The notes below the pieces were generated by a model. It was not told the DNA's origin. It saw only the letters and a program-made list of their open reading frames with translations, and did not search any database. From the IMG/VR virus record IMGVR_UViG_3300031951_009668, positions 1-31,917 of that record: DNA of 31,917 bases; one strand, given 5' to 3'. The first letter of the stretch is position 1. Every line of letters starts with the position of its first letter. The position numbers and the translations under genes are program-made. Of this stretch, positions 11,568-29,985 are shown one piece after another. Source of the stretch: a virus.

Positions 11568-11568
11568 T

Positions 11569-16166: not shown

Positions 16167-16541
16167 ATGAAAAAATTATTATTAGTATTGTTTGGAGCAC
16201 TATTAATTGTTGGCTGTAGAAAATTAGATATTTATCCACAACCACCAGTTGTAAATCCAAATGAGGAACTAAAAATGGCAGCGGCTTCTGGTTTGAAACT
16301 ACAATCAGTATTCGTAACTTCAGAAGTGGCTATTAACGTAAAGTTAGAAGCTGGACAAAACGTAACAATTAAAATCTTTGATATTGCAAATAGAGTAGTA
16401 TCTAAAGAAACAATGTACGCAAACACCGGTGATAATATATTAAAGGTTTATACTAATGCATTTCCAGCATCAGCATATAGAATAGCTCTATACGATGCAA
16501 ATGGTAAAATGTTAGGTATTACCGATTTTAATAAGTTATAA
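16167..16541 (+). CDS. Lipoprotein with sorting-domain-like beta fold (copy 2)
   Basis: The 124-residue paralogue of the preceding gene has an SPII signal ending VGC and the same RKLD-x-x-P-x-PP motif directly after it. The beta domain reads TIKIFDIANRVVSKE, then TGDNILKVYTNAFPASAYRIALYDANGK. Compared with copy 1 it has a slightly longer linker (NPNEELKMAAASGLK). An ATATTTATA sequence occurs 75 nt upstream inside copy 1, too far away to claim as its promoter. Function is unknown; it is probably located in the outer membrane. Confidence 0.65.
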   Translation: MKKLLLVLFGALLIVGCRKLDIYPQPPVVNPNEELKMAAASGLKLQSVFVTSEVAINVKLEAGQNVTIKIFDIANRVVSKETMYANTGDNILKVYTNAFPASAYRIALYDANGKMLGITDFNKL

Positions 16542-16568
16542 AATTTGTAACAATAAAATAAAAACAAA

Positions 16569-16886
16569 ATGTCAGAAGAAGTAGAAAGCACAAATGATGG
16601 TACTTGGTCTGGTTTGAAGAAAACAATAATCGGTGTTGCAACAACAGCGGTTATGGGCTTAGGTACTTGGGGTGTAACAAAAATCACAGGCGGTGGAGAT
16701 GAAGCAGCTCCTGCACCTGCAGCAGCACCCGTAATCAACATCACAAATTCTAACCAGCAATCTCAATCAGCAGGTGGAACAACTAAAATCATTGAAAGAG
16801 AAAAAGTTGTAGAAAAACCAGCTGCAGCTCCAGCACCTAAAAAGAAAGATGGTGATGAGTTCAAAGAGAAACCAGCTGAGTGGTAA
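16569..16886 (+). CDS. Single-pass membrane protein with Ala/Pro-rich tail
   Basis: The 105-residue product has a soluble acidic start, a moderately hydrophobic segment at about residues 16-40 (TIIGVATTAVMGLGTWGV) and a Pro/Ala-rich linker. A polar stretch with INITNSNQQSQSAGG and a lysine/glutamate-rich end follow. It was not recognised. It begins a run of four small membrane proteins up to 17962 that may be lysis or envelope proteins. Confidence 0.55.
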   Translation: MSEEVESTNDGTWSGLKKTIIGVATTAVMGLGTWGVTKITGGGDEAAPAPAAAPVINITNSNQQSQSAGGTTKIIEREKVVEKPAAAPAPKKKDGDEFKEKPAEW

Positions 16887-16889
16887 TAT

Positions 16890-16994
16890 ATGGGATATAA
16901 AATTGGGGTTACATTATTTTTCATAGCCTTCTTATTATGGGCTATGAATCATGCAAATAACGAAAGAATACGAAAAGAAAATGGCAGAGAATAA
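16890..16994 (+). CDS. Micro-membrane protein, 34 aa
   Basis: An ATG 3 nt after the previous stop opens a 34-codon frame, MGYKIGVTLFFIAFLLWAMN and then a polar, basic end. The hydrophobic stretch of about 16 residues can span or insert in a membrane. It overlaps the next gene by 14 nt if that gene starts at 16981. Its position between two membrane protein genes without a gap argues that it is translated. A holin- or spanin-like accessory role is only a guess. Confidence 0.45.
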   Translation: MGYKIGVTLFFIAFLLWAMNHANNERIRKENGRE

Positions 16995-17652
16995 TCAACA
17001 ACCACCAAGCGGCTTTAAGGACCTTCTTAATTCAATGATGAAAAGAAGATGGTGGATTACCGCATTGGTATTAGGTGGGTTTATGTTTATAATGGCAGGA
17101 ATGTTCGGGGCTATATTTATGAAATCCGAAATTGCAGGTGAATGGAAAGAACTTCTTTTATTATTATTAGGTGCTTTCATTGGTAGTTATGGTAAAATCA
17201 TAGATTACTGGTTTAGTGATACCGATAAAGATAAGATGTTAGTTCAGAAAATGGATGAGGAAGATGGAACTTCACTTTCACATACAAACGATATGAAGGA
17301 AAGTAACAAACCTACAACTCCACTTATTCCAGATGCATTTGTCCAAGCTGCAAATCATGCACATGAAATCAATCTAATAGAAGCTAACAAACCAAAAGAA
17401 GAAAAAGTTGAATCACAAATTACAGACGCTGTAACCGCTCCAACTCCAAAAGCAGGTAGAACTGGTGTAGAAGTTGATGAAGATGGTGATGGTGTAATGG
17501 ATGGTATTGACTTTGATGGTGATGGTAAGATTGATGTTTATTTCGCACATAGACAGTGTGAACACATTTGGGGTGATAAAGATGGTGATGGTGATGAAGA
17601 ATGTTTGAAATGTGGAAAGATAAAAGACGAAGATGCTGAACAAGCAGGGTAA
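16981..17652 (+). CDS. Two-pass membrane protein with tandem calcium loops and Cys motif
   Basis: The ATG at 16981 (MAENNQQPPSGFKDLL, 223 residues) is preferred; an in-frame ATG at 16951 would overlap the micro-ORF more. Two transmembrane segments lie at about residues 22-45 (ITALVLGGFMFIMAGMF) and 54-72 (ELLLLLLGAFIGSYGKII). After a charged linker come tandem calcium loops (DEDGDGVMDGIDFDGDG) near residue 175. A Cys/His cluster with C-x-H-x-W and a later ECLKCGK, which could bind zinc, follows, with another DKDGDGDE loop inside it. The calcium-loop pair is nearly the same as in the protein at 4030. Confidence 0.6.
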   Translation: MAENNQQPPSGFKDLLNSMMKRRWWITALVLGGFMFIMAGMFGAIFMKSEIAGEWKELLLLLLGAFIGSYGKIIDYWFSDTDKDKMLVQKMDEEDGTSLSHTNDMKESNKPTTPLIPDAFVQAANHAHEINLIEANKPKEEKVESQITDAVTAPTPKAGRTGVEVDEDGDGVMDGIDFDGDGKIDVYFAHRQCEHIWGDKDGDGDEECLKCGKIKDEDAEQAG

Positions 17653-17701
17653 TATAAATCAGTTACGCATAGGTTACATTAATAAACTAAATAAGTAAAC
17701 T

Positions 17702-17962
17702 ATGGGATGGTTAAAAGAACTATTCAGCGATGACAATCACATCAATGAAAAATCAGTAGTAGGTTTCGGTGCATTCATAATGATGGTTATTACTCTTTCA
17801 GTTGATATTATCACTGGTGTAATGGGTAAAGAAATGCCAATCCACGAATTTGTATTTGATGGATTTATGGTAATCACATTGGGAGCATTCGGTATCGCTT
17901 CAGTTGATAAATTCATCAACGCTAAGAAGGGAAAGAAAGTTGAAGAAGAAGAATTAGGATAA
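17702..17962 (+). CDS. Holin-like small membrane protein
   Basis: The 86-residue product has a short amphipathic start and two hydrophobic helices (about residues 17-38, FGAFIMMVITLSVDIITGVM, and 50-70, FMVITLGAFGIASVD). A lysine/glutamate-rich cytoplasmic tail follows. Size, topology and the short glycine-containing loop fit several phage holin families, which form lethal inner-membrane holes at lysis. No endolysin gene is adjacent, so the assignment stays tentative. It is followed directly by a terminator. Confidence 0.5.
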   Translation: MGWLKELFSDDNHINEKSVVGFGAFIMMVITLSVDIITGVMGKEMPIHEFVFDGFMVITLGAFGIASVDKFINAKKGKKVEEEELG

Positions 17963-17965
17963 TAT

Positions 17966-17994
17966 AAAGGGAGAACATAGTTTCTCCCTTTTTT
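17966..17994 (+). terminator. Rho-independent terminator, copy A
   Basis: AAGGGAGAA (17967-17975) pairs with TTCTCCCTT (17982-17990) around a 6-nt loop, then T6. It is nearly identical to the terminator at 19423, and both run into ATATTTATA. Confidence 0.9.
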
Positions 17995-18003
17995 ATATTT
18001 ATA
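17995..18003 (+). promoter_or_regulatory. Candidate late-promoter element ATATTTATA
   Basis: The exact motif begins at the end of the terminator T run and lies 14 nt before the ATG at 18018. Confidence 0.6.
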
Positions 18004-18017
18004 CTAAATAAAATGTT

Positions 18018-18221
18018 ATGGCACTACCTTGTCCCGCTTGCAAACAACCTTTGGGATTAACTTTAGAATTTATATTCAAACATCCAGTTTCAGCCTGTCC
18101 ACATTGTGAGACAGTTTTGGATTTTACAGTTAATGATGAAATAAAGGAAAAATATAAGGAAGCACTTGTTGAAATAGAAAAAATCAAAAAAGAGTACCAA
18201 GGAGTAGTAAAATTTGGATAA
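18018..18221 (+). CDS. Zinc-ribbon protein
   Basis: The 67-residue protein has two CPxC-type knuckles, CPACKQ near residue 5 and CPHCET near residue 28, with the spacing of a small zinc ribbon. A charged helical tail follows. Such proteins bind nucleic acid or protein partners. It is followed closely by the DUF2589-type pair, and the three may form one functional unit. An ATG five bases upstream is out of frame. Confidence 0.65.
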   Translation: MALPCPACKQPLGLTLEFIFKHPVSACPHCETVLDFTVNDEIKEKYKEALVEIEKIKKEYQGVVKFG

Positions 18222-18245
18222 TTGGGGTGTTTTATACTTTTTGGG

Positions 18246-18254
18246 ATATTTATG
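18246..18254 (+). promoter_or_regulatory. Possible late-promoter variant ATATTTATG
   Basis: This one-base variant lies 41 nt before the ATG at 18296 in a short intergenic gap. The same 9-mer also occurs inside a coding region near 17113, so it is weak. Confidence 0.3.
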
Positions 18255-18295
18255 TTCAAACAAGTTACAAAAATTAATTATAAAAACTTAAATTT

Positions 18296-18910
18296 ATGGC
18301 AGGTATCGCAGACCAATTCGCAGGTCTTCCTATTGAAGATTTGATTGTTTCACCTATTGTTGGTATGGCAAAAGGTCAAGCAAAATTAAACGAAGTAACT
18401 TGGAAATATATTTCTGAAGTAGCATTCGTAACGGACGAGAAAACTAAAAAAACTAAAGCACGTGCTTTAGATGTTGAAATGAACAGAGTTGTAACCGATG
18501 GTGCAACAGGTGAACAAAAACTACAAAAAATTTATAGTAAAGTTCCTATGTTACCATTAGTACCACTTCCTTCATTAGCAATTACTTCAGCAGATATTGA
18601 ATTTGCTATGGAAGTAAAAACTTCAGAGACAGAAAAAAGTGATGTAAAAACTGAAAGCAGTGTTGAAGTATCAGCTGGTGGTAGATTTTGGGGTATGAGC
18701 TGGAATGCAAAAATTTCTGGTAAAGTAGCTACAAACAAAGAGAACACTAGAAGCACTGACAACTCAGCTAAATACAATGTAAAAGTACACGCTGAACAAT
18801 TACCAGCAACTGAAGGTATGTTGAAATTATCAGATTACCTAACTCAAATGTTAGAACCATCTTTAATTCCACTTACTGAAGACCCAGCAACTGGTGGTGG
18901 TAAGAAGTAA
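18296..18910 (+). CDS. DUF2589-type protein
   Basis: The 204-residue protein shows features I associate with DUF2589. It begins with a helical LIVSPIVGMAKGQAKLNEVTWKYI segment. The signature VPMLPLVPLPSLAI (about residues 83-96) is followed by ITSADIEFAMEV. A variable Ser/Lys-rich stretch comes next, and then a final strand KYNVKVHAEQLPATEGMLKL with a helix. The family is found in bacteria and some phages and has no established function known to me. The next gene encodes a shorter, related partner. Confidence 0.65.
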   Translation: MAGIADQFAGLPIEDLIVSPIVGMAKGQAKLNEVTWKYISEVAFVTDEKTKKTKARALDVEMNRVVTDGATGEQKLQKIYSKVPMLPLVPLPSLAITSADIEFAMEVKTSETEKSDVKTESSVEVSAGGRFWGMSWNAKISGKVATNKENTRSTDNSAKYNVKVHAEQLPATEGMLKLSDYLTQMLEPSLIPLTEDPATGGGKK

Positions 18911-18938
18911 TAGATAAAAATAAAATAAAGGTTATATT

Positions 18939-19415
18939 ATGGCAAGATTAAATGTAGAGGAACTTGTTGGCGGTCTCTTAGAGGCCGCCATGGTTTCTCA
19001 AGGTATAAGTGAAAGACAGCATATTAATGCTATCCGAAACTATTTCAATGAAGATGGTACACCCAAAACCACTACCTTTAATATAGGTGGTAAGGATTTG
19101 GTTGTACCTCTTTATATTTTGGCGGACCATTCATCTATTGGATTGGATGAGCTAGATATTGAGTTTACTTGTAGACTTATATTTGGTGACGAAGAAAAAG
19201 AAGTATCCAGTCTTAAAAAATCTCTATTAGGTTTATTTAAGAAAAAAGGATACGAACACAATATCAAAGGTATTGAAGTTGATTCAGGTTACAATCCAAC
19301 TGAAGCTGGTATGGCTAAAATAAAGGTTAAGTTTAAGGCTGATGAAAAGCCCGAAGCTGTAAGTAGATTGATTGATGAATATATCAAAAATCTTGAAGAC
19401 CCAAATGTAAAGTAA
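18939..19415 (+). CDS. DUF2589-like partner protein
   Basis: The 158-residue protein has an N-terminal helical segment (VEELVGGLLEAAMVSQGISERQ). A VVPLYILADHSSIGLDELDIEFTCRLIF element follows, in the same order as the signature of the preceding protein (proline strand, then a xxDIEF strand). It ends with a beta strand and an amphipathic helix (EAVSRLIDEYIKNL). The shared order suggests a related fold and a hetero-oligomer with the upstream product. The leader TAAAGGTTATATT before the ATG resembles the one at 10374. A terminator follows. Confidence 0.55.
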   Translation: MARLNVEELVGGLLEAAMVSQGISERQHINAIRNYFNEDGTPKTTTFNIGGKDLVVPLYILADHSSIGLDELDIEFTCRLIFGDEEKEVSSLKKSLLGLFKKKGYEHNIKGIEVDSGYNPTEAGMAKIKVKFKADEKPEAVSRLIDEYIKNLEDPNVK

Positions 19416-19422
19416 ATAAATT

Positions 19423-19451
19423 AAGGGAGAACATCGTTTCTCCCTTTTTTT
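19423..19451 (+). terminator. Rho-independent terminator, copy B
   Basis: AAGGGAGAA (19423-19431) pairs with TTCTCCCTT (19438-19446), then T7. It differs from copy A at 17966 mainly by one loop base. Confidence 0.9.
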
Positions 19452-19460
19452 ATATTTATA
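19452..19460 (+). promoter_or_regulatory. Candidate late-promoter element ATATTTATA
   Basis: The exact motif follows the terminator T run directly and lies 15 nt before the ATG at 19476. Confidence 0.6.
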
Positions 19461-19475
19461 AGAAATTATCTATGT

Positions 19476-20204
19476 ATGAAAAAATTATTCGTATTATTAA
19501 GTATATTGTTGATTACGAGTGGTGTGGGTGTCCTACATGCTCAAACAATAGGAAAAACTAAAACTGAAGATTTCAAAGCAGATTTTGAAAAGAAAAAAGA
19601 TATATCTGCATATTTGGATTATGAAGGTCCAAAGAAAAATATCCAAATCCTTAAATGTGGTATTGGTGAAGAAGTGTACGAAATGTACCCTGAATTAAAA
19701 GAAAAGAGAGTAGGATTGGGTGTTGCAAATATCGTATTAGAATATTTGGATAACCTTAATCGTTTTGAATTTACCGAAGATAAGACTGAAATTAAAAATA
19801 GAATGGTGCAACAATTCAAAGCATCAAACGCTGGTATTTCCGAAAACAAAATTGAAGGTAGAGGAAAGATTAAATTGGCACATTACTTTGTAGAGATTGA
19901 AGTATATGATTATTCAGTATCAGAAGATGAAACTATTAACTTAAAAGATGGTATCAAAGATAACTTAGTAACTCGTTTAGGTTTACAGGTTAGATTTACA
20001 AATGCTGAGAATGGTTCAATCATCGCAGCATCTGGTTTGGGTGAAGCTAAAACAAATAGAGAACTTACTTTACTTTCTGATGCAACTGTGGACCCAATTA
20101 AATTCAACCAATCTACAATTAGTATTTCAACTAAGAAAGCATTGGATATAGCTTGTGCAAACATTTTGGACAAGATGATTAAAAAGGGTGTATTTGAAAA
20201 ATAA
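19476..20204 (+). CDS. CsgG-like exported protein
   Basis: The 242-residue product has a type I signal peptide (LFVLLSILLITSGVGVLHA, cut before QTIG) and no lipobox. The mature domain contains RVGLGVANIVLEYLDNLNRFEFTED, which corresponds to the CsgG-family helix followed by the strand before the variable region. The end FNQSTISISTKKALDIACANILDKMI matches the family's C-terminal helix. CsgG is the outer-membrane export channel of curli; related proteins occur in cyanophage and other marine phage genomes. The length is slightly below E. coli CsgG, and the missing acylated Cys makes a classical pore uncertain. Its stop overlaps the start at 20204. Confidence 0.65.
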   Translation: MKKLFVLLSILLITSGVGVLHAQTIGKTKTEDFKADFEKKKDISAYLDYEGPKKNIQILKCGIGEEVYEMYPELKEKRVGLGVANIVLEYLDNLNRFEFTEDKTEIKNRMVQQFKASNAGISENKIEGRGKIKLAHYFVEIEVYDYSVSEDETINLKDGIKDNLVTRLGLQVRFTNAENGSIIAASGLGEAKTNRELTLLSDATVDPIKFNQSTISISTKKALDIACANILDKMIKKGVFEK

Positions 20205-20446
20205 TGATTAGCTTAAAAACTATATTATCAGAATCAACCAAAACCGAATATATTGTTTGGGGTATTCCTCCTGGTAAAAGAGATGAGGAAATTTTATACA
20301 CAAAAGCTAAATCAAGTGGTGAAGCTAAAAAAGTAATAGATATATTAACACAAAAGCATGGATGTAAAAAGTGTAGAGTTCAGGTCTTAAATTTATCGCA
20401 AGATACCGATTTCTCACAAGAATTTGGAAACACTGTAAAACGTTAA
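20204..20446 (+). CDS. Leader-bearing small protein 1
   Basis: The 80-residue protein begins MISLKTILSE, the shared leader, ending in the I-x-E type cleavage site. The rest (YIVWGIPPGKRDEEILYTKA, then a Cys pair in HGCKKCRVQVLNL) resembles a small phage protein of unknown function with a beta-alpha-beta feel. It overlaps the CsgG-like gene by TAATG. By analogy with T4 internal head proteins it may be packaged in the capsid and lose the first 10 residues. Confidence 0.6.
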   Translation: MISLKTILSESTKTEYIVWGIPPGKRDEEILYTKAKSSGEAKKVIDILTQKHGCKKCRVQVLNLSQDTDFSQEFGNTVKR

Positions 20447-20449
20447 GAT

Positions 20450-20572
20450 ATGGCAAAAGCAAAACCAAAACCAGTACCTATGAGAAGTAGGAGAAGCGGT
20501 TTGAAAAAAATGAAGTTAATTAAACAAAATTTAGAAGTATTAAAAAGATTAGAGAATGATAAAGTTAAGTAA
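20450..20572 (+). CDS. Small basic peptide, 40 aa
   Basis: The short frame from the ATG at 20450 encodes MAKAKPKPVPMRSRRSGLKK and a helical, basic second half. It starts 3 nt after the previous stop and overlaps the next start by 17 nt, so packing supports it. The composition (Lys/Arg/Pro-rich, no acidic residue in the first 30) suggests DNA or RNA binding. It has no leader of the shared type. Confidence 0.5.
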   Translation: MAKAKPKPVPMRSRRSGLKKMKLIKQNLEVLKRLENDKVK

Positions 20573-21047
20573 TATACTAAAAGAAAACTACTCTCATATC
20601 AGATATTTAGTATCTGACCTTAAGAATCTATACTATGAAGTTAATGATAAAAAGTTAAAACAAATAATATTGGATTTAATTCCTTCAGGAACACAATACA
20701 CATATACTCCACAAAAATCAGATTTTTATATTAAAAAATTTAATGAGTTAGAAACATTAAGTAAAAAAGTATTAAAACCAAACAACCCAGCTCTTAAAAC
20801 AATACAAAAAGTAGTTAAGGGTGGTATGGATTTTTGGAATCAGAAAGAGAATATCAAAGAAATAGAAGTAGGACAGGGACACGAAAACGATAGAGATATG
20901 GTTGTGGGTGTTGCTGAAATTATTCGTATGGTAGATGATATGAACAATAGAAAGGAAATAGCAGATGCTATGTTAAGAAAGTTCAAATCAGAAGATGTAA
21001 TACACAATGCAAAGGAGTTCCTAACATTATGTGGAATTTCTTCATAA
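20556..21047 (+). CDS. Leader-bearing protein 2
   Basis: The 163-residue product begins MIKLSNILKE (shared leader, I-L-K-E). The remainder is helical and highly charged: LVSDLKNLYYEV, a serine/threonine loop, GGMDFWNQKENIKEIEVG, then GVAEIIRMVDDM. No enzyme motif was recognised. It is separated from the TonB receptor gene by about 70 nt that hold the long hairpin at 21074-21136. Confidence 0.55.
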   Translation: MIKLSNILKENYSHIRYLVSDLKNLYYEVNDKKLKQIILDLIPSGTQYTYTPQKSDFYIKKFNELETLSKKVLKPNNPALKTIQKVVKGGMDFWNQKENIKEIEVGQGHENDRDMVVGVAEIIRMVDDMNNRKEIADAMLRKFKSEDVIHNAKEFLTLCGISS

Positions 21048-21073
21048 TTTCTTAATATTAAAATAACCAATTT

Positions 21074-21136
21074 AGAGAAACGCTTTCATAGTTATTGGGG
21101 AACTAACCTAAAATAACTTTATGAGAGCGTTTCTTT
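21074..21136 (+). promoter_or_regulatory. Long hairpin sequestering the TonB-receptor start codon
   Basis: The arm 21076-21090 pairs with 21120-21134 (15 bp with one G-U). After a 2-nt bulge, GTTATT (21091-21096) pairs with AATAAC (21112-21117), around a 15-nt loop. The ATG at 21121-21123 is inside the 3' arm. T-rich sequence follows, so it could also terminate or attenuate transcription. Confidence 0.65.
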
Positions 21137-23373
21137 TATTTCTGTTACTACCTTTATCAACATTTTCGCAAGATACATTATTTAACAAAGTCCTTTCAGA
21201 AGTGACTGTAAAATCTGCCGGTCAAAGGATAACCGAAGCATCCATTGTAAGAAGTATTCGTAATTCAAATGTAGTATCCGATGGATTATCAGTTGAGTTT
21301 ATTAAAAAAACACCCGATAGAACCGTTGGTGATGCACTTAAAAGAGTAAGCGGTGTTACTATTCAAAACGATAAGTTTGTATTGGTAAGAGGATTAGCAG
21401 ACCGTTACAATTCTGCTATGTTAAATAAAACTCTACTGCCATCAACCGAACCAGATAGGAGAGCATTTTCATTTGATATAATTCCTACATCCCTAATTGA
21501 TAATATAATCATAGCTAAATCAGCTTCAGCAAATCTACCTGGTGATTGGAGTGGTGGATTGGTGCAAGTTTCTACAAAAGAAGTTTCCAACAATTTTTTC
21601 AATATCTCATTGGGAAGTGGTTGGGGTTCGGTTTCATCTCTTAAAGATTTTAAGTTAGTTCAAGCTACTGAATTTCCTTCCACATTCCCATCCACTTATC
21701 GTTTCCGAATAAGCCCAAACATTGAAAGGAGAGCATTTACAAAGTTAATAGGTTCACCAACAACCGAAGGGTTTACATCTCCACTTAATACAAATGGAGC
21801 ACTTTCATTTGGATATAAGAAGGGTAAGTTTAATGCTTTACTTAGTTCTACAATACGAAACTCATTCAATCTAAACTATATTGAAAGAACTGATTATCAA
21901 TCTTCAACTGAATTGGCATACGATTACAAAGATACACTTTACTCAAAAAGATTTCAAGCAAATGGATTACTTAACTTAACTTATTTGGGTGAAAACCGAT
22001 ATAGTTGGAAAACATTAGTAAGTTATCAAACTGATGACTCGTATATGAATAGAGTTGGTGAGAACTATGATAATGTTCAGAATGTATTAAGTAATTCTTC
22101 TAATCATATCCGCAACTTTGTTCTTAATTCACAATTAGACGGTAAGATTAAGACATGGGATTTTAATGTAGGATATAATTTTATTTTTAGAGAACAACCT
22201 GATTATAGAGTTAATCCAATTACAAAATCATTGGGTGTAAACGAACCATATGCAACCGCATGGAGAGACACATATCGTTTCTGGTCAATTATGGATGAGA
22301 ACGGAATGAATGGTAACATTAACAAAGATTTTGGTAAGATAAAAGTTGGTGGTGGTTATCTAAAAAAGATTAGAGGATTTAACGCAAGAGTTTTTAGATA
22401 TACCGCAGTTGATATGTTGGATGAAATAACAAACAACACCGATAGATACACCGCAGATTTTGATTTAGGTAATGGTTATGTAATGTATGATGGTGAGTGG
22501 GGTAAATGGAAATTGAATAGTGGATTGAGAACTGAATATAATATCTTTAGAGTTAATACATCTGATTTTAGCGGAATACAAATAAATGTAGATAGAGAGT
22601 ATTTGGATTTGTTACCTTCATTAAATCTTTCATACAACGAAGAAAAAAGTAAGTATAGATTTTCAATGAGTAAAACATTAGCAAGACCTGAATTTAGAGA
22701 AGTGGCTAATTTTGCTTATTATGATTTTGTAAGAAACGCACAATTATTGGGTAATTCAAATCTTAAAAAATCTGACATCTATAATGTAGACCTTAAATGG
22801 GAATACTATCCATCAAATAAAGAAAGTATATTCATTTCTGCGTTTGGTAAAAACTTTGTAAATCCAATTGAACAAATAGTAGCGGATGGTTCAGTTCCTT
22901 CCAATCTTCTTTTAACTTACACAAATCCAAAACAAGCAACAATATATGGTGTAGAATTGGAAATCAGAAAAAAGATAAATGGTTGGTTTGATTTTTATAC
23001 AAACACTTCGGTAATGAATTCGCAAGTAAATGCAAATGGAATTAGAAGACAATTGCAAGGACAATCAAACTATGTTATTAATTCTGGTATAAACATACAT
23101 AAGAAAAATGAAACATTAAATATTTCATATAATAGAGTTGGAGATAGAATATCAGCAGTTGGTTTCCAAGGTTACTCTGATATTTTTGAAAACGCTAGAG
23201 ATGTAATAGATATTGTGTTTCTACATAAATTAAAAAAAGGAGAACTTAAATTTGCGGTAGCAGATATACTTGCACAACCATCGGTTTATTATCAAAAGTT
23301 ACAAACAAAACGAAATTTGATAAAAACAAACAACGAACAAACAATTTCATTAACATTAAATTTAACACTATGA
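21121..23373 (+). CDS. TonB-dependent outer-membrane receptor
   Basis: The 750-residue protein has a signal peptide (FLLFLLLPLSTFS before QDT) and a TonB-box-like EVTVKSAG. A plug domain covers about residues 25-150 (TVGDALKRVSGVTIQND, FVLVRGLADRYNSAML, LIDNIIIAKSASANLPGDW, GGLVQVSTK). A 22-strand-type barrel rich in alternating aromatic residues follows, ending NEQTISLTLNLTL. Unlike many Bacteroidota receptors it lacks the N-terminal carboxypeptidase-regulatory-like domain. Such receptors import siderophores, B12, glycans or other ligands across the outer membrane using TonB/ExbBD. The substrate is unknown. It overlaps the following lipoprotein gene (ATGA). Finding one in a phage is unusual. 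Confidence 0.88.
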   Translation: MRAFLLFLLLPLSTFSQDTLFNKVLSEVTVKSAGQRITEASIVRSIRNSNVVSDGLSVEFIKKTPDRTVGDALKRVSGVTIQNDKFVLVRGLADRYNSAMLNKTLLPSTEPDRRAFSFDIIPTSLIDNIIIAKSASANLPGDWSGGLVQVSTKEVSNNFFNISLGSGWGSVSSLKDFKLVQATEFPSTFPSTYRFRISPNIERRAFTKLIGSPTTEGFTSPLNTNGALSFGYKKGKFNALLSSTIRNSFNLNYIERTDYQSSTELAYDYKDTLYSKRFQANGLLNLTYLGENRYSWKTLVSYQTDDSYMNRVGENYDNVQNVLSNSSNHIRNFVLNSQLDGKIKTWDFNVGYNFIFREQPDYRVNPITKSLGVNEPYATAWRDTYRFWSIMDENGMNGNINKDFGKIKVGGGYLKKIRGFNARVFRYTAVDMLDEITNNTDRYTADFDLGNGYVMYDGEWGKWKLNSGLRTEYNIFRVNTSDFSGIQINVDREYLDLLPSLNLSYNEEKSKYRFSMSKTLARPEFREVANFAYYDFVRNAQLLGNSNLKKSDIYNVDLKWEYYPSNKESIFISAFGKNFVNPIEQIVADGSVPSNLLLTYTNPKQATIYGVELEIRKKINGWFDFYTNTSVMNSQVNANGIRRQLQGQSNYVINSGINIHKKNETLNISYNRVGDRISAVGFQGYSDIFENARDVIDIVFLHKLKKGELKFAVADILAQPSVYYQKLQTKRNLIKTNNEQTISLTLNLTL

Positions 23374-24566
23374 GAAAATTATTAGGACTTATTTTAATCT
23401 TAGGATTATTCAGTTGCGAAAAAAATTTAGGTGGATATGAACCGCCTGTAAATGTTCCCCTTTCAACAACATTAAGTGGAACATACAAAGAAACTATCAC
23501 ACTAACCGCAGATAAAGTGTGGATATTAAAAGGATATGTTTATATCACAAATGGTTCACAATTAAGAATTCAACCGGGTACAAAGATTGTATCTGATGTT
23601 GCTGAAAAGGGTGCATTGTGTATCGAAAGAGGTGCACAAATAATTGCGGAAGGAACTGCACAAAAGCCAATCGTATTTACATCAGGAAAACCAGATGGTG
23701 AGAAAGCACCTGGTGATTGGGGTGGTATTGTAATATTGGGTATAGCTCCAACTAATAGAACATCAGAACCAACTATTGAAGGTGGTATTGGTAGACCTTA
23801 TGGTGGTACACTACCTGCTGATAATAGTGGTGTTCTAAAATATGTAAGAATTGAATACGCTGGAATCGCAGCAATGCCAAACTCCGAAATTAACGCACTA
23901 ACATTGGGTGGTGTTGGTAGTGGAACAATCATTGAGAATGTTCAAACTATTTACGCTAACGATGATGCATTTGAATTTTTTGGTGGAACTGTAAATGCTA
24001 AAAACTTATATGCATTCGCAACCGCAGATGATGATTTTGACTTTGATTTTGGATATACTGGAACTATTACAAATGGTGTGGCAAAGAGAGACCCACAATT
24101 TGTAGATAACGGAGATGCTGGAAATGGTATTGAGTGTGATAACGATGGAACAGGTTCAACCGCAACTCCATATACACATCCAAAACTATTCAATATGATT
24201 TTAGTTGGACCTAATACCTCAACTGCATTAGCAAACCATAACTTAGGTTTAAGATTTAGGAGAGGGACTCAATTCACAATGAAGAATAGTGTAATTTGGG
24301 GATGGATGAAAGGTGGATTGAGTTTAGAAAGTAATGAAACAGCACAATTCGTAAAAGATGGTGTTTCTGTATTTGAAAACAATTCAGTAGGAACATTTAA
24401 TCCTACCCTAAACTTTATCAGTAGAGCAACCACAATTTTAACAAATGAACAACTTAAAACTTTAGCATTAGGTAAAGGTAATAAGGAAATAGATGTGGTA
24501 ATACCTGAATTAGATAAACCAATATGGGTTAATGGATGGACTAGATTTCCAACAAAAGGTAATTAA
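23370..24566 (+). CDS. Parallel beta-helix surface lipoprotein, receptor partner
   Basis: The 398-residue product has an SPII signal ending LFSC, then EKNLGGYEPP. The repeated short strands (LRIQPGTKIV, AQIIAEGTAQKPIVFTSG, DWGGIVILGIAPTNR, GVLKYVRIEYAGIA, DDAFEFFGGTVNAKNLYAF, ADDDFDFDFGYTG) are those of a right-handed beta-helix family common in Bacteroidota. Members are often misannotated as 'multidrug transporter' and are frequently encoded next to TonB-dependent receptors. The Asp-rich DDDFDFDF segment may bind metal. The ATGA overlap with the receptor indicates coupled translation and suggests a two-part uptake or binding unit like SusCD. Confidence 0.8.
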   Translation: MRKLLGLILILGLFSCEKNLGGYEPPVNVPLSTTLSGTYKETITLTADKVWILKGYVYITNGSQLRIQPGTKIVSDVAEKGALCIERGAQIIAEGTAQKPIVFTSGKPDGEKAPGDWGGIVILGIAPTNRTSEPTIEGGIGRPYGGTLPADNSGVLKYVRIEYAGIAAMPNSEINALTLGGVGSGTIIENVQTIYANDDAFEFFGGTVNAKNLYAFATADDDFDFDFGYTGTITNGVAKRDPQFVDNGDAGNGIECDNDGTGSTATPYTHPKLFNMILVGPNTSTALANHNLGLRFRRGTQFTMKNSVIWGWMKGGLSLESNETAQFVKDGVSVFENNSVGTFNPTLNFISRATTILTNEQLKTLALGKGNKEIDVVIPELDKPIWVNGWTRFPTKGN

Positions 24567-24570
24567 AACG

Positions 24571-24597
24571 AAAGGGAGTACTAAACTCCCTTTTTTT
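24571..24597 (+). terminator. Rho-independent terminator after the receptor pair
   Basis: AAAGGGAGT (24571-24579) pairs with ACTCCCTTT (24585-24593) around ACTAA, then T7. ATATTTATA follows directly. Confidence 0.9.
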
Positions 24598-24606
24598 ATA
24601 TTTATA
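24598..24606 (+). promoter_or_regulatory. Candidate late-promoter element ATATTTATA
   Basis: The exact motif lies 19 nt before the ATG at 24626. Between them is a strong Shine-Dalgarno AAGGAGG, unusual for Bacteroidota genes. Confidence 0.6.
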
Positions 24607-24625
24607 GGTACAAAAAGGAGGACCT

Positions 24626-25447
24626 ATGAAAAAACTATTATTCTTAATAATGTTACTACCATTAGTTGCATTATCTCAAGTCTCCTCTTGGAGAACTAAT
24701 CCACCACAACCTAGAGTATCAACTCCATCTGTTCAAGGACAGAGAAGTGATATGAGTATGTGGAGAAACCAATCACCTAGAGAGTTTAATAGACCACAAA
24801 CAAAGCCTGGCTCAAACATCATCATCAACAACAATCCTTGGGGTTGGAACAATTGGGGATGGGGTTGGAATAGATGGGATATGTGGGGAGCACCTGGTTT
24901 CGGTTGGAACTTCTATACTCCTATGTGGTATTGGAATGATTGGGGATACCGTCAACCTGCAAGAGTATATGTTTACAATGATGGTAGGAAAGATACTATA
25001 AGAGGTAAAAAACCTATCATAAATTTTGGTTTACACAAAACAACAAACGAACAAATCGGTGGTTATTTCGCAGTTGGTAACAAAGGATATTTCATAATGG
25101 ATTTTGTTTCAACTTATGCAACTGACCGTTCTACTTTCTTTCCTTATGGTACAATTGGTAGAGTAGATTTCCCACTAATTTCAGACCTTAAAAAAGAAAG
25201 AACGTTTTATGTTGGTGGTGGTATCCGATACAAAAGAACCGGCTTCCATACAATGATAGGTGCTGGTAGAGAGATAGTAAGATGGAGAGGTAAAGATGCT
25301 TTGGGTGAAATAACTTTCCCTAAGTACAATTCAAATTTTGTTACAGCGAAGGTCGGTGTTATGTATGACATTAAAAACTTTACAATCAAGTTTGACACTG
25401 ACCCTATTAGAGATTATGTCCAATTTGGTTTAGGACTTAATTTCTAA
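24626..25447 (+). CDS. Exported Trp/Asn-rich protein with beta-barrel-like end
   Basis: The 273-residue product has a signal peptide (LLFLIMLLPLVALS before QVSSW). A low-complexity segment at about residues 20-108 is rich in Pro, Asn and especially Trp/Gly (NNPWGWNNWGWGWNRWDMWG). From about residue 130 the pattern turns to amphipathic beta strands (INFGLHKTTNEQIGGYFAVG, FYVGGGIRYKRTGFHTMIGA) and ends QFGLGLNF with a terminal Phe, like a small outer-membrane barrel. It is preceded by AAGGAGG, the clearest ribosome binding site in the window. It forms a transcript with the next gene, which has a similar barrel-like end. Confidence 0.6.
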   Translation: MKKLLFLIMLLPLVALSQVSSWRTNPPQPRVSTPSVQGQRSDMSMWRNQSPREFNRPQTKPGSNIIINNNPWGWNNWGWGWNRWDMWGAPGFGWNFYTPMWYWNDWGYRQPARVYVYNDGRKDTIRGKKPIINFGLHKTTNEQIGGYFAVGNKGYFIMDFVSTYATDRSTFFPYGTIGRVDFPLISDLKKERTFYVGGGIRYKRTGFHTMIGAGREIVRWRGKDALGEITFPKYNSNFVTAKVGVMYDIKNFTIKFDTDPIRDYVQFGLGLNF

Positions 25448-25448
25448 A

Positions 25449-26864
25449 ATGGTAAAATATCTAAGTATTTTTTTATTGGTATTAAGTTGCCTGTTCACAC
25501 AAAATGTGAGCGGGCAAACTTATACCCAATCCTATGTGGACAAGTGTACTGGTGAATTAAAGCTAGTTACAACACAAATGGTGAATGGTAACTATGTGGT
25601 ATCATTCTATAATCAGGTCAGAACATTTACTGCAACTGAAGTAATGAGTGGTGTTACACAGGCTTGGTTGACAACCGTTTACGCACAATATTCTACAATG
25701 GGTTGTCCTACTAATCAGGTGGTGCAACAAACTGTAAACCAAACTGTAAATCAGGCAACATCCCAAGCAGCATCAGCAGCGGCATCGGCAGCAAGTTCAG
25801 CTGCATCATCTGCTGCTAGTTCAGCCGCTTCATCATCAGCAAGTTCAGCAGCAAGCAGTTCCGCATCAGCGGCAGCATCTTCATCGGCTAGTTCTACACC
25901 ACCACCTACATCTTCATCATCAGGAAGCACTACTTCTGGAAGTTCTAGCAGTAGTTCTGGTTCATCTTCATCCAGCTCAAGCAGCTCATCATCTTCATCT
26001 TCTGAAACTAAATCGGAGAGTAGTAGTTCATCATCTTCATCAGAACAAAAGAGTGAACAAAAATCTGAGCAGAAGCAGGAAGAGCAAAAGAGTGAAAGTA
26101 AATCGGAAGAAAAGAAAGAAGAATCTAAATCCGAAGAAAAAAAGGAAGAAAAGAAAGAGGAGAAAAAAGAGGAAAAGAAGGATGATAAAAAGAAAGGAAA
26201 GAATGCAGTAAATCCTATGTTAGTTTCAGCAGATTTAGCAGGAACTCAAGATATGGAAGGAAAATATGCAGCATTGGCAAGTGTTGGTATATCTAAATCA
26301 TCTCTTATGGGTGATAAATCTTATTCTGCTACCGCACTTATTTGGAGTACGTTAGACCAATACGCAGTTAGTGGTGGTATGACAAAGATGGATTTTGAAG
26401 AAGGTAAATTAAATGGTATTCATTCATATTCAGTAACCGCAGCGTATCTGAAAGGAACTTGGATGCAAATGTTAGGATATACCTATGTAAAACCACATCC
26501 TAAATGGGGAACTTATGGATACAATGTTGGTGTTATTGCATTACAAATTAAAAATCCAATGACTCAAAAATATAATTTGAATTTGTTGACATCATTTGTG
26601 GGATTTTGGACTAAACCTTACCAAATCAATCGTAAAACCACAATTTCACCACAAATATTCTATATGAATTCACCAATTAGTTACAATCCATCAACAAAGG
26701 GAACATTGGTGACAAGAATACCTGGTTTTGTTGTGGGAAGTGGATATGATTTCAGACTTAGTAAAAGATTCGCATTTTCAGCAGCTTATAGGGCTGTATT
26801 ATCTTTAGAACCTAAGTTTACTATTATGAACAACTTCCAAATTGGTTCTAAATTGGTTTTGTAA
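25449..26864 (+). CDS. Exported protein with Ser/Ala and Lys/Glu repeats and a beta-barrel-like domain
   Basis: The 471-residue product has a signal peptide (IFLLVLSCLFTQNVSG before QTYTQS) and a small N-terminal domain with two Cys (C33, C86). A 145-residue low-complexity segment follows: Ala/Ser repeats (105-150), poly-Ser (155-200), then Lys/Glu/Ser and Lys/Glu repeats (200-250). The C-terminal 220 residues are amphipathic beta strands with aromatic girdles (YSATALIWSTLDQYAVSGG, GTYGYNVGVIALQI, FVVGSGYDFRLSKRFAFSAA) ending in QIGSKLVL, suggesting an outer-membrane barrel. The Ser run mixes TCA, TCT, AGC and AGT codons. Confidence 0.6.
   Translation: MVKYLSIFLLVLSCLFTQNVSGQTYTQSYVDKCTGELKLVTTQMVNGNYVVSFYNQVRTFTATEVMSGVTQAWLTTVYAQYSTMGCPTNQVVQQTVNQTVNQATSQAASAAASAASSAASSAASSAASSSASSAASSSASAAASSSASSTPPPTSSSSGSTTSGSSSSSSGSSSSSSSSSSSSSSETKSESSSSSSSSEQKSEQKSEQKQEEQKSESKSEEKKEESKSEEKKEEKKEEKKEEKKDDKKKGKNAVNPMLVSADLAGTQDMEGKYAALASVGISKSSLMGDKSYSATALIWSTLDQYAVSGGMTKMDFEEGKLNGIHSYSVTAAYLKGTWMQMLGYTYVKPHPKWGTYGYNVGVIALQIKNPMTQKYNLNLLTSFVGFWTKPYQINRKTTISPQIFYMNSPISYNPSTKGTLVTRIPGFVVGSGYDFRLSKRFAFSAAYRAVLSLEPKFTIMNNFQIGSKLVL
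25761..26201 (+). repeat. Low-complexity coding repeat (Ser/Ala then Lys/Glu)
   Basis: This internal part of the preceding gene encodes Ala/Ser, poly-Ser and Lys/Glu repeats. At DNA level it is a mixed, imperfect triplet repeat, with purine-rich GAA/AAA/AAG runs from about 26041 onward. Confidence 0.8.
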
Positions 26865-26873
26865 ATATTTATA
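26865..26873 (+). promoter_or_regulatory. Candidate late-promoter element ATATTTATA
   Basis: The exact motif starts one base after the stop of the preceding gene and lies 17 nt before the ATG at 26891. No terminator precedes it. Confidence 0.55.
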
Positions 26874-26890
26874 CACAAAAATAATACCTT

Positions 26891-27547
26891 ATGAAAAAAT
26901 TTGTTAATTTCAAAAACATTGCCATTGCCGCATTGGTAATTTGGATTTTATTACAATGGTTTAACCCAGGTGGAGTTATGCCAGGCGGAAGAACTATCAG
27001 AATTGATGGTAAAAAATACGAAGTTATAAAACATACGATAGATACTGTTGAAGTAGAGAAAGTAAAAGTAGTTACTAAGAAAGGAAAAGATATTGTACAT
27101 GAAGTAATTGATGTAGATACTTTAGTACTTAAAGAAATGATAAATGTAGATAGTGCAGCAATCCTTAAAGATTACTTAGCAAAGATTGTTTACAAAGATA
27201 CCCTAACTTTAGATGGTGGATTGGGAACTATTGCATTAACGGATACTATCACAAAGAATAGAATATTAGGTAGAACTTGGGATGCTAAAGTAAAAGAAAG
27301 AATCATCAAAGAAGAACTTATTGTTAAAGAACCTGCAAAAGCACAACTTTATTATGGTTTGAATGCTGGGTTTAACAAAGAAGATTATGTATCTGCAGTT
27401 GGAGCTGGTTTAATCTTAAAAACTAAAAAAGATAAAATTTATCAATTTGGTTTAGGTGTAAACAATAGAACTACTGATGGAACTAATGGTTCATTCTCAC
27501 CTTATGTTGGATTTGGTACTTATTGGAAAATTAAAGTTAAAAAATAA
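26891..27547 (+). CDS. Membrane-anchored envelope protein
   Basis: The 218-residue product has an N-terminal transmembrane segment at about residues 8-25 (NIAIAALVIWILLQWF) without a cleavage site. A valine/lysine/aspartate-rich, probably elongated helical or beta stalk follows (VEVEKVKVVTKKGKDIV). The C-terminal domain contains barrel-like strands (YYGLNAGFNKEDYVSAVGAG, YQFGLGVNN, FSPYVGFGTYWKI). It could span the periplasm. It was not recognised as a named family. Its stop overlaps the first of the leader-bearing genes (TAATG). Confidence 0.5.
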   Translation: MKKFVNFKNIAIAALVIWILLQWFNPGGVMPGGRTIRIDGKKYEVIKHTIDTVEVEKVKVVTKKGKDIVHEVIDVDTLVLKEMINVDSAAILKDYLAKIVYKDTLTLDGGLGTIALTDTITKNRILGRTWDAKVKERIIKEELIVKEPAKAQLYYGLNAGFNKEDYVSAVGAGLILKTKKDKIYQFGLGVNNRTTDGTNGSFSPYVGFGTYWKIKVKK

Positions 27548-27819
27548 TGATAAAGCTAACACAAATTAACGAAGCATCGGAAGTGATGTATAAAGAATTG
27601 AAACCAGTTCATCAAAAGCAGGTTCAAGCATTTGAAAAAATCATAGGTGGAAAGCACTCTCAAATATTTGATGGTATTCACGGAATGATTGTTGATATAG
27701 AAGCAAGTGGTAACTTTGGTAGCGGATATAGATTTGATGCTAATACACTAAAAAAGTTATTAGCACTTAAAGTTCGTTGGATAGAAGCTGATGGTGATTT
27801 AGTAACAATAGCATTTTAA
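27547..27819 (+). CDS. Leader-bearing small protein 3
   Basis: The 90-residue protein begins MIKLTQINEA, a one-residue-shorter form of the shared leader that still ends I-N-E. The body (VQAFEKIIGGKHSQIFDGIH, then FGSGYRFDANTLKKLLALK) looks like a compact alpha/beta fold. It was not recognised. It starts the densest leader cluster; the next gene begins after 1 nt. Confidence 0.55.
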   Translation: MIKLTQINEASEVMYKELKPVHQKQVQAFEKIIGGKHSQIFDGIHGMIVDIEASGNFGSGYRFDANTLKKLLALKVRWIEADGDLVTIAF

Positions 27820-27820
27820 T

Positions 27821-28168
27821 ATGATAAAGTTAAAAGATTTAATAACAGAAGCAAAATCAGATTATCAAGTATATCATAAAACATACTCAGCAGCAATAGC
27901 TACAGCTAAAGCATATGCGGAGAAAAAAGGATATGAAGTTGATGATGAAGATTCTTTTAGAAAAATAGGAATGGGCCCTAGAAAACCATCTGCTGGTAAG
28001 ACAAATAGATTTTCAATTGAATTAACTAAAGATGGAAAACCACAAAAGAAAATGCTACATATTCAAGTTTATAATATGGGTACTTTCAAAAGAGATTCTG
28101 ATGGTTCTTTAGTTAGAAGTATGTATGGTGGGCAAAACGAATATGAACTAAACGCTTACATCAACTAA
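27821..28168 (+). CDS. Leader-bearing small protein 4
   Basis: The 115-residue protein begins MIKLKDLITE (L-I-T-E). The body contains YHKTYSAAIATAKAYAEKKG, GMGPRKPSAGKTNRFSIELT and a C-terminal strand YELNAYIN, a combination I recall from several T4-like marine phage hypothetical proteins. The basic GPRKPSAGKTNR segment could contact nucleic acid. The stop overlaps the next start (TAATG). Confidence 0.6.
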   Translation: MIKLKDLITEAKSDYQVYHKTYSAAIATAKAYAEKKGYEVDDEDSFRKIGMGPRKPSAGKTNRFSIELTKDGKPQKKMLHIQVYNMGTFKRDSDGSLVRSMYGGQNEYELNAYIN

Positions 28169-28482
28169 TGATATTACTTAAAGACATATTAGGAGAAGAC
28201 CTTCGTAAGTGGTTTGGTAAGGGCAAGACTGGTTCTACAACTGGTGGTGGTTGGGATAGATACAATGCACAAGGTAAGAAGGTTGGTAAGTGTGGTGATT
28301 CAAAAGCAGGAGACCCATACGCAGCTTGCCTATCAAAAGAAAAAGCAGCTAAGTTAGGACCTGATGGTAGAGCGGCATTTGTAAAAAGAAAAAGAGCTGC
28401 ACAATCAAAAGCAGGAGATGCTAAGAAAGGCGGTGAAAAATCAAAAGGTCAAAAACCAACATTTGTTAAGACAGGTGCATAA
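28168..28482 (+). CDS. Leader-bearing small basic protein 5
   Basis: The 104-residue product begins MILLKDILGE (I-L-G-E), followed by DLRKWFGKGKTGSTTGGGWD. It is strongly basic, glycine-rich and carries two cysteines (GKCGD, AACLSKEKAAKLG) with a lysine-rich, probably unstructured tail. Similar small basic Gly/Cys proteins occur in large phages and giant viruses. Binding of the packaged genome is plausible and fits an internal head protein. The stop overlaps the next start. Confidence 0.6.
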   Translation: MILLKDILGEDLRKWFGKGKTGSTTGGGWDRYNAQGKKVGKCGDSKAGDPYAACLSKEKAAKLGPDGRAAFVKRKRAAQSKAGDAKKGGEKSKGQKPTFVKTGA

Positions 28483-29099
28483 TGATTTCACTAAAAAAGA
28501 TATTATCAGAGGTTGGAGAAGGTTCAGCAAAACCATTTTCATACAATAGAAAAGGTAATTTCAGTTCATTTTTCAAATCACTAAAAACGGCATCAACAAT
28601 TGACAAATATACAAAGCAAAAAGATTTTGTGTATGAAGTAATTGGTGATAAGTCTCGTTATTTGGTAAAATTTGCTTGTATTTTAAGAAAAAAGAACCCT
28701 ATGATTTTGGTATTACCTGGTCAAAAAAGAAAAGACCCACCAAAAGATAAATACGAAATGGAAGTTTCAATTGGATTTAATGTAAAGAGAGCAAGGGATG
28801 AATATGAAACCGGTTTTGGAGAAATGTATAGTTTAATGGCTACTGTAATTGAAACTATAAAAGATTTTGTGAAAGGTGTTGATGATGATATTAAGGTAAA
28901 TGGAATTCACATTTATCCAAAAGCAGATTTCAAAGGACTTGAAAGTGATGTTGATTCAAAAAGAGGTAGAATATATTTATCTTATATTAAGAAGAATATA
29001 GGAAAACTACCAGGCAAATGGTCAGCATTTCAATACAATGATAGAATTGAAGTAAGAAATGGTGATTGGACTGGTAATGATATAATAGCAAAAAGTTAA
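28482..29099 (+). CDS. Leader-bearing protein 6
   Basis: The 205-residue protein begins MISLKKILSE (I-L-S-E). The mature part reads as an alpha/beta domain with several basic patches (YLVKFACILRKKNPMILVLP, KVNGIHIYPKADFKGLE, RGRIYLSYIKKNIGKLPG). No family or active site was recognised. It is the largest soluble member of the leader group. It sits between two small basic members with a TAATG overlap upstream and 3 nt downstream. Confidence 0.55.
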   Translation: MISLKKILSEVGEGSAKPFSYNRKGNFSSFFKSLKTASTIDKYTKQKDFVYEVIGDKSRYLVKFACILRKKNPMILVLPGQKRKDPPKDKYEMEVSIGFNVKRARDEYETGFGEMYSLMATVIETIKDFVKGVDDDIKVNGIHIYPKADFKGLESDVDSKRGRIYLSYIKKNIGKLPGKWSAFQYNDRIEVRNGDWTGNDIIAKS

Positions 29100-29102
29100 A
29101 CT

Positions 29103-29405
29103 ATGATAAAGCTAACCGATATAATTAATGAAAAATGGAGCCAGAAGTATAAGCGCTCTATTGATTGTAACAACCCAAAAGGATTCTCACAAAAAGCACA
29201 TTGTCAGGGTAGAAAGAAAAACGAGTTGGTAGAAGAAGCTTTAGAATTATTTTTAGAAAAGAATTGTCCAACTGACCCAGAAAAGTGGTCAGCATCAAAA
29301 GCGGCAGCTAAAAGAAAGTTTGATGTATATCCATCAGCATATGCAAATGGATGGGCTGCAAAAAATTACAAATCAAAAGGTGGTGGTTGGAAGACCTGTA
29401 AATAA
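29103..29405 (+). CDS. Leader-bearing DUF5872-like protein 7
   Basis: The 100-residue protein begins MIKLTDIINE (I-I-N-E). A CNNPKGFSQKAHCQGRKK segment with two Cys follows. The end KRKFDVYPSAYANGWAAKNY is what I know as the DUF5872-type signature in phages and large DNA viruses. Function is unknown. The basic composition suggests nucleic-acid contact. The next leader-bearing gene starts 1 nt after its stop. Confidence 0.65.
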   Translation: MIKLTDIINEKWSQKYKRSIDCNNPKGFSQKAHCQGRKKNELVEEALELFLEKNCPTDPEKWSASKAAAKRKFDVYPSAYANGWAAKNYKSKGGGWKTCK

Positions 29406-29406
29406 T

Positions 29407-29985
29407 ATGATAAAGTTAAAATCATTAATAAAAGAAAGTTTTGTACAAGAAGCTGTAACATGGCTATTTGTAAATGTGGCTATATTTGTAATTAGTCAGG
29501 TCATAAGAGGTATCAGAAATAAATCCGAATATAAAAATTATACACAAGAACCACATATAAAATGGTTAGACAGAATTGGTAATAATACTAATTTTAATAA
29601 ATACGTTTACTTTACACTTAAAAATGATAAAAAAATAAAAGAGTTTGAGGCGGAATTTGAAAAATTAAAAGATACCAAACAATATATGAAACAAAAAAGT
29701 TTAGATTGGGATAAGTTTCAATATGAAAAATCATTAGTTAGTAAATGGTTAAGTTCTAAAATAGCACAAGAAGAATTAGAAAAAACATTCAAAGAAATAC
29801 ACCCTGATAAAAACGAAAATAGTAAAGATATTCCATTAAAAAACGGATTAACAATAAGCTATAAACAATGGAAAAATAATATAACTAGAGAAGCTGTTAA
29901 AGAATGGACTGGTGTGTTGAGTGATGGTACTACAAAAAAGTTTATAAATAAATTTGCACAACAACAAGGATTACCAACCATATGA
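29407..29985 (+). CDS. Leader-bearing membrane protein 8
   Basis: The start is placed at the ATG at 29407, giving MIKLKSLIKE (L-I-K-E) and 192 residues; an upstream in-frame ATG at 29320 would add 29 residues lying entirely inside the previous gene. After the leader comes a hydrophobic helix (VTWLFVNVAIFVISQVI) and then a long lysine/glutamate-rich helical domain. A leader followed by a membrane-inserting helix would fit an injected protein that acts at the host membrane. The last bases overlap the next start. Confidence 0.6.
   Translation: MIKLKSLIKESFVQEAVTWLFVNVAIFVISQVIRGIRNKSEYKNYTQEPHIKWLDRIGNNTNFNKYVYFTLKNDKKIKEFEAEFEKLKDTKQYMKQKSLDWDKFQYEKSLVSKWLSSKIAQEELEKTFKEIHPDKNENSKDIPLKNGLTISYKQWKNNITREAVKEWTGVLSDGTTKKFINKFAQQQGLPTI

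Follow-up and report, generated by a model that had tools for sequence, protein, structure and literature searches.

A TonB-dependent receptor and a beta-helix lipoprotein carried by T4-like Bacteroidota phages: a probable phosphorus-acquisition cassette under host PhoB control

The stretch of DNA considered here (the window), 31,917 bases long, is a fragment of a virus in IMG/VR, record IMGVR_UViG_3300031951_009668, whose plus strand carries two overlapping genes, one for a TonB-dependent receptor and one for a lipoprotein. This pair probably constitutes a self-contained cassette, controlled by the host regulator PhoB, that captures a phosphorus compound in the course of infection and imports it in a TonB-driven manner. 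An earlier note on the same DNA had offered nutrient capture as one of several possible roles; this proposal stands and can be narrowed to phosphorus by the phosphate genes that adjoin the pair in host relatives, by published relatives induced upon phosphate (Pi) depletion and by a host-type Pho box predicted in the phage group. The features of the pair, all on the plus strand, are as follows.

21038..21068, +: Pho-box-like array of three units at an 11-bp period (TTCATA / TTAATA / ATAACC), overlapping the end of the preceding open reading frame (ORF)
21089..21097, +: TAGTTATTG, conserved promoter-like element, situated 32 bases upstream of the receptor start codon
21121..23373, +: TonB-dependent receptor gene, intact ORF of 750 aa; signal, TonB-box-like stretch (~25-32), plug (~53-155) and barrel (~156-750), with limits judged by eye
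23370..23373, +: ATGA stop-start overlap of the receptor and lipoprotein genes
23370..24566, +: lipoprotein gene, intact ORF of 398 aa; Cys16 lipobox, predicted right-handed beta-helix, putative Pho-type (FII/ElpS-like) partner
24570..24594, +: terminator-like hairpin followed by a T run, directly after the lipoprotein stop

Both genes are intact and joined by the ATGA overlap, as had been read from the sequence, and the identities originally assigned to their products are borne out. The receptor matches Plug (32.2 bits, cut-off 23.9) and OMP_b-brl_3 (86.5 bits, cut-off 27) in Pfam, and its model, with a predicted local distance difference test (pLDDT) score of 85, is a plugged TonB-dependent barrel whose top Foldseek match is PhuR (E 2e-24). 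Pfam, model and Foldseek therefore agree on a plug domain within an outer-membrane barrel, the arrangement that defines a TonB-dependent transporter (TBDT). The N-terminal CarboxypepD_reg-like domain of longer relatives is absent from the window receptor. The stretch LSEVTVKS at residues 25-32, with a mean column identity of 0.52 across phages, is a candidate TonB box. The lipoprotein has an N-terminal signal with Cys at position 16 (by eye) and is modelled as a right-handed beta-helix (pLDDT 91; VIA Z 23.9 to AlgG), placed by fold comparison near alginate epimerases, lyases and tailspikes; by itself, this predicted fold gives the lipoprotein no function. Sequence searches with it returned no match at 0.01 in Pfam, PHROG or NCBIfam and nothing useful from the PDB, a BFVD fold search gave no match at E <= 0.001, and PHROGs gave nothing for either gene of the pair. 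With no SusD match in Pfam at 0.01 and a beta-helix model instead, the protein is not a SusD-like lipoprotein.

In the host relatives, adjacent genes for a TBDT and a beta-helix lipoprotein, homologous to the phage pair, often adjoin phosphate genes. Of the 11 host rows closest to the phages in the lipoprotein tree, 9 have PitA- and PhoU_div-type genes next to the pair; at host locus L154 it is surrounded by PHO4, PhoU_div and a kinase-regulator pair, and in the Chryseobacterium loci L175-L178 a kinase-regulator pair adjoins the TBDT and lipoprotein genes. Across 80 host loci, short contigs included, PitA was found in 13, PhoU_div in 12, a histidine kinase in 25 and a response regulator in 27. 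Of the 35 host genomes from which 35 of these 80 loci derive, 6 have PHO4 within 10 kb of the lipoprotein gene, against a rough chance estimate of about 0.2. The labels PstS, PstC, PstB, PhoU and porin derive from similarity to seeds named by eye; Pfam finds PBP_like_2 in the PstS-like proteins of L170 and L211, PhoU in L170, Metallophos in L149 and Porin_O_P in L187, and no match in the porin-like proteins of L148, L154 and L170. The PstB and union counts over the host loci are not built on, because generic matches to ATP-binding cassette (ABC) proteins inflate them. Siderophore or B12 uptake, for which the earlier note had proposed tests, finds no support in the neighbourhoods viewed, where no search aimed at iron or B12 genes was made.

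The upstream regions point in the same direction, with a predicted host-type Pho box before the receptor gene in the phage group. Within 200 bases upstream of the host receptors, [TGC]TAA[CT]A hexamers recur at exactly 11, 22 and 33 bases; the 11-base spacing occurs in 14 of 20 near hosts and 17 of 46 other hosts, and spacings of 9, 12 and 13 never occur. A matrix was derived from hosts only, with 58 sites in 37 of 66 host upstreams, and applied with a line at 8 bits. It marks 31 of the 55 distinct phage receptor upstreams versus 12 of 747 other phage ORFs (Fisher 4e-31), and 30 of 55 versus 2 of 233 in an intergenic-only control; 28 of the 31 phage sites lie 57-83 bases before the start codon. 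The hexamer pairs of the phages likewise peak at spacings of 11 (15), 22 (7) and 33 (3), compared with 0-0.4 in shuffles, and among spacings of 7-21 the 11-bp value (15/55) stands against 0-3 at all others. With receptor upstreams excluded, 31 upstreams of host phosphate genes were scored with the host matrix, a set chosen after the box had been found absent at PitA, PhoU_div and PstC, and 20 of them are marked, versus 48 of 861 other host ORFs (1e-16); by gene class, the box is found at PhoB-type regulators (8/12), porin-like genes (6/9), PstS-like genes (2/5) and phosphoesterases (4/5). ORFs were called by a longest-frame rule, and the box test is weakened by receptor starts that in some cases (e.g., L019 and L103) seem to be set too far upstream. 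A predicted Pho-box promoter is recognized at the level of the phage group, and the window taken alone is weak with two units and top with three: in a three-unit scan of both strands, 21041-21068 is its best site (7.1, the next being 5.1).

Several observations weigh against phosphate control and a phosphorus ligand. With the two-unit host matrix, the window site 21038-21060 reaches 7.9 bits, under the 8-bit line, is degenerate and ranks fifth in the window; 24 of the 55 phage receptor upstreams also fall below 8 bits, and no box precedes the pair of the 634-kb phage LR745206. In the hosts, the box is absent upstream of PitA (0/10), PhoU_div (0/10) and PstC (0/2), and adding these 22 upstreams, which may also be among the 861, leaves 20 of 53 with a box. 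Phosphate-transport-type seeds are found in none of 55 of the 80 host loci, many of these contigs being short, and the Pedobacter relatives near the phage clade adjoin RNase Y and Mpo1-like genes, not phosphate genes. The forks that link the phage clade to single hosts in the lipoprotein tree have support of 84-88, and no PstS-like gene was found in the 27 carrier records. Finally, computed Pho boxes in phages are described as unreliable (PMC10976474), and extracellular phosphorus uptake by the published relatives was deduced from their induction (PMC8115612, PMC2996285).

Taking these observations together, the following course of events may be proposed. A T4-like Bacteroidota phage group would have taken the pair, probably once, from a Chitinophagaceae/Sphingobacteriaceae-type host and kept it under purifying selection. 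In an infected cell short of phosphate, phosphorylated host PhoB would bind the array at ~21038-21068 and turn on a two-gene message ending at the hairpin at 24570. Together, the lipoprotein, presumably exposed at the surface of the cell, and the receptor's conserved outer loops would catch a phosphorus-containing ligand (phosphate or organophosphate), which the receptor, driven by host TonB-ExbBD, would carry into the periplasm; host phosphatases and PitA-type transporters could then complete uptake, supplying phage DNA synthesis to the benefit of the phage. A more specific form of this proposal, which we advance tentatively and at somewhat less than even odds, is that lytic freshwater-Bacteroidota phages carry in the pair a complete and self-terminated outer-membrane import operon belonging to the host PhoB regulon, which scavenges extracellular organic phosphorus in a TonB-driven manner, perhaps from nucleic acid or nucleotide debris of lysed neighbours.

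Phylogenetic comparison with host receptors, a check put forward in the earlier note, places the phage receptors (29 representatives) in one clade with support 100 among host-type relatives, where they join L147/L148 with support 99. The phage lipoproteins (33 representatives of 123 full-length sequences) likewise form one clade with support 100. The phage clade is nested among Chitinophagaceae-type relatives, and the nearest hosts in the lipoprotein tree are mostly Chitinophagaceae. Leaving aside the near-identical contig L002/L065, the window receptor is closest to L038 (94%), and the window lipoprotein is closest to L066 (95%) and groups with L008; by these affinities the two genes seem to be partly reshuffled within the phages. 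The ratio of nonsynonymous to synonymous substitution rates (dN/dS) is 0.04-0.30 in 17 chosen pairs of loci, the saturated L018-L023 receptor comparison giving no ratio, and these values rule out unselected passenger DNA. The trees, together with gp23, terminase and PhoH in the carriers, indicate a host-derived gene fixed in viral genomes, as is expected of an auxiliary metabolic gene.

Receptors with and without the N-terminal CarboxypepD_reg-like domain coexist among the phages, 10 being long and 19 short by length (n = 29). The long form, of ~825 aa, occurs in L008, L084 and other loci, and the tree requires four domain changes; PF13715 was identified in the 827-aa receptor of L084, the one locus on which this Pfam check was made. 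A separate clade is formed by the paralogous lipoproteins of L230-L237 and L239-L242, which stand beside receptors of ~1,090 aa usually preceded by a protein of ~300-370 aa. These paralogues are possibly under other control and directed to another ligand.

A junction of phage and bacterial DNA at the pair, the artefact on which the proposal would have foundered according to the earlier note, is ruled out by a second IMG/VR contig, IMGVR_UViG_3300032093_008073 (locus L002), which spans the pair and matches window positions 11121-29567 with 99.96% identity. The suggested survey of other phage genomes was also productive. From IMG/VR scans that provided 63 receptor loci and the best 80 of 115 lipoprotein loci, at least 113 distinct contigs with one or both genes were obtained, whose names include 92 different sample numbers. 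Both genes are present in 115 of the 142 phage loci examined (repeats of one contig included), with a 4-base overlap in 111, a 2-base gap in three and a split receptor frame in one; the latter, L053 (9974-12128), has the frame in two pieces and is the sole such case. A single gene is found in 26 loci, each of which ends no more than 400 bases away on the side where the partner would lie, and one locus is unresolved.

The affiliation to T4-like phages, suggested from the window, is upheld for the group as a whole by gp23 (PF07068) in 11 of the 17 long carrier records. A strong terminase match is also present in 11 of these 17; a twelfth, weak match in G012 is left out of the count because the model also matches in bacterial genomes and this match overlaps the PhoH gene. 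PhoH is found in 16 and ribosomal protein bS21 in 12 of the 27 carrier records. In G001, G008 and G014 (the records of L027, L025 and L014), bS21 is encoded on the opposite strand, with gp23 and terminase on either side of it, an arrangement described for freshwater Bacteroidetes phages (PMC9723584), and its placement therefore ties these records to those phages. From a sample of 80 gp23 relatives among the matches listed, the 18 other contigs that reach 44 kb or more were screened for the lipoprotein; none of these 18 carries it, and for this reason the pair is regarded as accessory. The view that such pairs are not standard cargo of T4-like phages consequently holds in the sense that the pair is accessory, and has to be qualified in that it recurs in more than a hundred contigs. 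In the 634-kb phage LR745206, the pair is present with reversed gene order; both proteins sit on long branches far from the rest, so that this pair was probably acquired separately. The fecal 'Bacteriophage sp.' records L145 (MT838075) and L146 (MT837092) are both of the same 'UNVERIFIED' kind. L145 groups with Parabacteroides in both trees, is probably bacterial DNA and was dropped as evidence of phage carriage.

Sequence conservation across the 29 phage receptors provides a means of weighing other roles. The outer loops score 0.78, the periplasmic turns 0.63 and the plug 0.84, the most variable loops being L1 (0.59) and L11 (0.70), and L2, L7, L8 and L10 being among the conserved ones; loop sides were assigned from the model strands and the general TBDT topology. 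The conservation of the modelled outer loops fits ligand capture and lipoprotein docking. Earlier suggestions were that the receptor serves as a decoy or replacement and thereby excludes other phages or colicin-like toxins, or that it contributes to a switch of receptors. Phages and toxins often use TonB-dependent receptors, and phage surface proteins can bring about superinfection exclusion. However, a decoy under pressure to vary is disfavoured because the outer loops are more conserved than the periplasmic turns; the partner lipoprotein and the gene overlap are retained, and control appears tied to phosphate status. These roles are accordingly not sustained and must be considered highly improbable. 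Import of a non-phosphorus cargo such as an iron complex, a vitamin or a glycan, by a pair acquired from the host as a general means of capturing nutrients, would agree with the generic fold, with haem and siderophore transporters as the closest solved receptors, with a lipoprotein fold common to glycan-active enzymes, and with the broad TIGR01782, under its cut-off, as the nearest NCBIfam model. It is nevertheless rather improbable, given the phosphate-gene context of the near hosts, the Pho box in both hosts and phages, and the induction of the published pair by Pi depletion only (PMC8115612).

A different division of labour between the two proteins is also conceivable, in which the lipoprotein is a surface enzyme or enzyme activator, with ElpS-like phosphatase stimulation or glycan cleavage by the beta-helix, and the receptor imports only the product. 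This is a variant of phosphorus acquisition, not its opposite. Overexpression of ElpS raises phosphatase activity, although ElpS is seemingly no phosphatase itself (PMC2996285). The fold is that of epimerases and lyases, and the lipoprotein contains many invariant acidic residues (D198, D199, E202, D220, D221, D224, D226, E255 and D257), whose conservation suggests a metal or ligand site. Sequence searches, however, give no catalytic family match, and the top Foldseek match has E 4e-3; on balance, an enzymatic or activating lipoprotein appears unlikely, at roughly one chance in three or a little under.

Returning to the phosphorus-acquisition cassette, its borders are marked by two further signals. 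In 25 of 55 phage loci, TARTTATTG occurs in the 80 bp that precede the receptor gene, and only one other ORF has it so placed; the element may represent a -7-like one. A terminator-like structure follows the lipoprotein gene in 34 of 67 distinct phage loci, versus 45 of 850 other ORFs. The hairpin of the window is one of three such sites in a 5.1-kb stretch, versus 2.1 in shuffles, and is unsurprising alone. A sigma-70 scan was uninformative (26 sites versus 23.5 in shuffles), and an Rfam search gave nothing. Promoter, two genes and terminator together resemble a moron-type cassette.

The genes around the pair include further exported proteins. A secreted protein of 242 aa (19476-20204), with no Pfam match at 0.01 and a CsgG-like appearance, has relatives in 33 loci, mostly similarly placed. 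Directly downstream, 24626-26864 encodes two more secreted proteins with barrel-like C-termini (by eye), whose relatives occur in 31 and 43 loci, mostly directly after the pair; the second contains a long Ser-rich and then a Lys/Glu-rich stretch. Further upstream lie two neighbouring DUF2589 proteins (18296-19415) and an 859-aa protein with C-type lectin and LCCL domains, unexpected in a phage (13227-15806).

If the more specific form of the proposal is correct, viruses would use the pair as an outer-membrane, energised route to phosphorus, and receptor-lipoprotein pairs would gain a new ligand class. The best-known case of viruses controlling phosphorus uptake is the periplasmic PstS of cyanophages; with the cassette proposed here, such control would reach heterotrophic Bacteroidota as well as the outer membrane, and the phage would have retained a host-type phosphate switch besides host-type genes. 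In the open-access literature searched, no phage-borne TonB-dependent receptor tied to phosphorus was found. The import substrate of Pho-regulated TBDT-lipoprotein pairs in Bacteroidota and the effect of phages on phosphorus flow in lakes become testable, and TAAYA units at 11 bp provide a candidate Pho-box consensus for Bacteroidota.

Among known systems, the closest is Fjoh_0545/Fjoh_0546 of Flavobacterium johnsoniae, a TBDT with lipoprotein FII (PUSIV), which lies in the phoBR operon and is strongly induced by Pi depletion (PMC8115612). Its Pfam domains pf07715, pf13715 and pf14905 are the same three as in the long phage receptor L084, and in both cases a pectin-lyase-fold lipoprotein is the neighbour; phosphate-starvation control is a further point in common, predicted in the case of the phages. 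In contrast to the phage pair, the Flavobacterium pair is chromosomal, and the window receptor lacks the N-terminal domain; the comparison is one of published descriptions. Lipoproteins FI-FIII are reported to be 31-36% identical over about half their length to the Caulobacter lipoprotein ElpS (PMC8115612). ElpS of Caulobacter crescentus is encoded beside the receptor CC0171 and made under phosphate starvation (PMC2996285). As in the phages, a TonB-dependent receptor gene adjoins that of a surface lipoprotein, but the phylum is another, the release of ElpS depends on the type II secretion system, and the receptor is expressed in both rich and poor media (PMC2996285). SusCD pairs and BtuB/BtuG similarly combine a TonB-dependent receptor with a surface lipoprotein, whereas the window lipoprotein models as a beta-helix without a SusD family match. 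The phosphorus-acquisition auxiliary metabolic genes described for phages of soil and public databases comprise 17 gene kinds in the list of PMC10987575, with neither an outer-membrane receptor nor a lipoprotein. The cyanophage pstS under host PhoBR is likewise a phage-borne phosphorus-uptake gene of T4-like phages with a host-type Pho box, and the cyanobacterial box PyTTAAPyPyT/A resembles the TTAAYA unit of the phage and host box; unlike the outer-membrane, TonB-driven pair proposed here, PstS is the periplasmic binding protein of an inner-membrane ABC system, and its hosts are cyanobacteria (PMC10976474).

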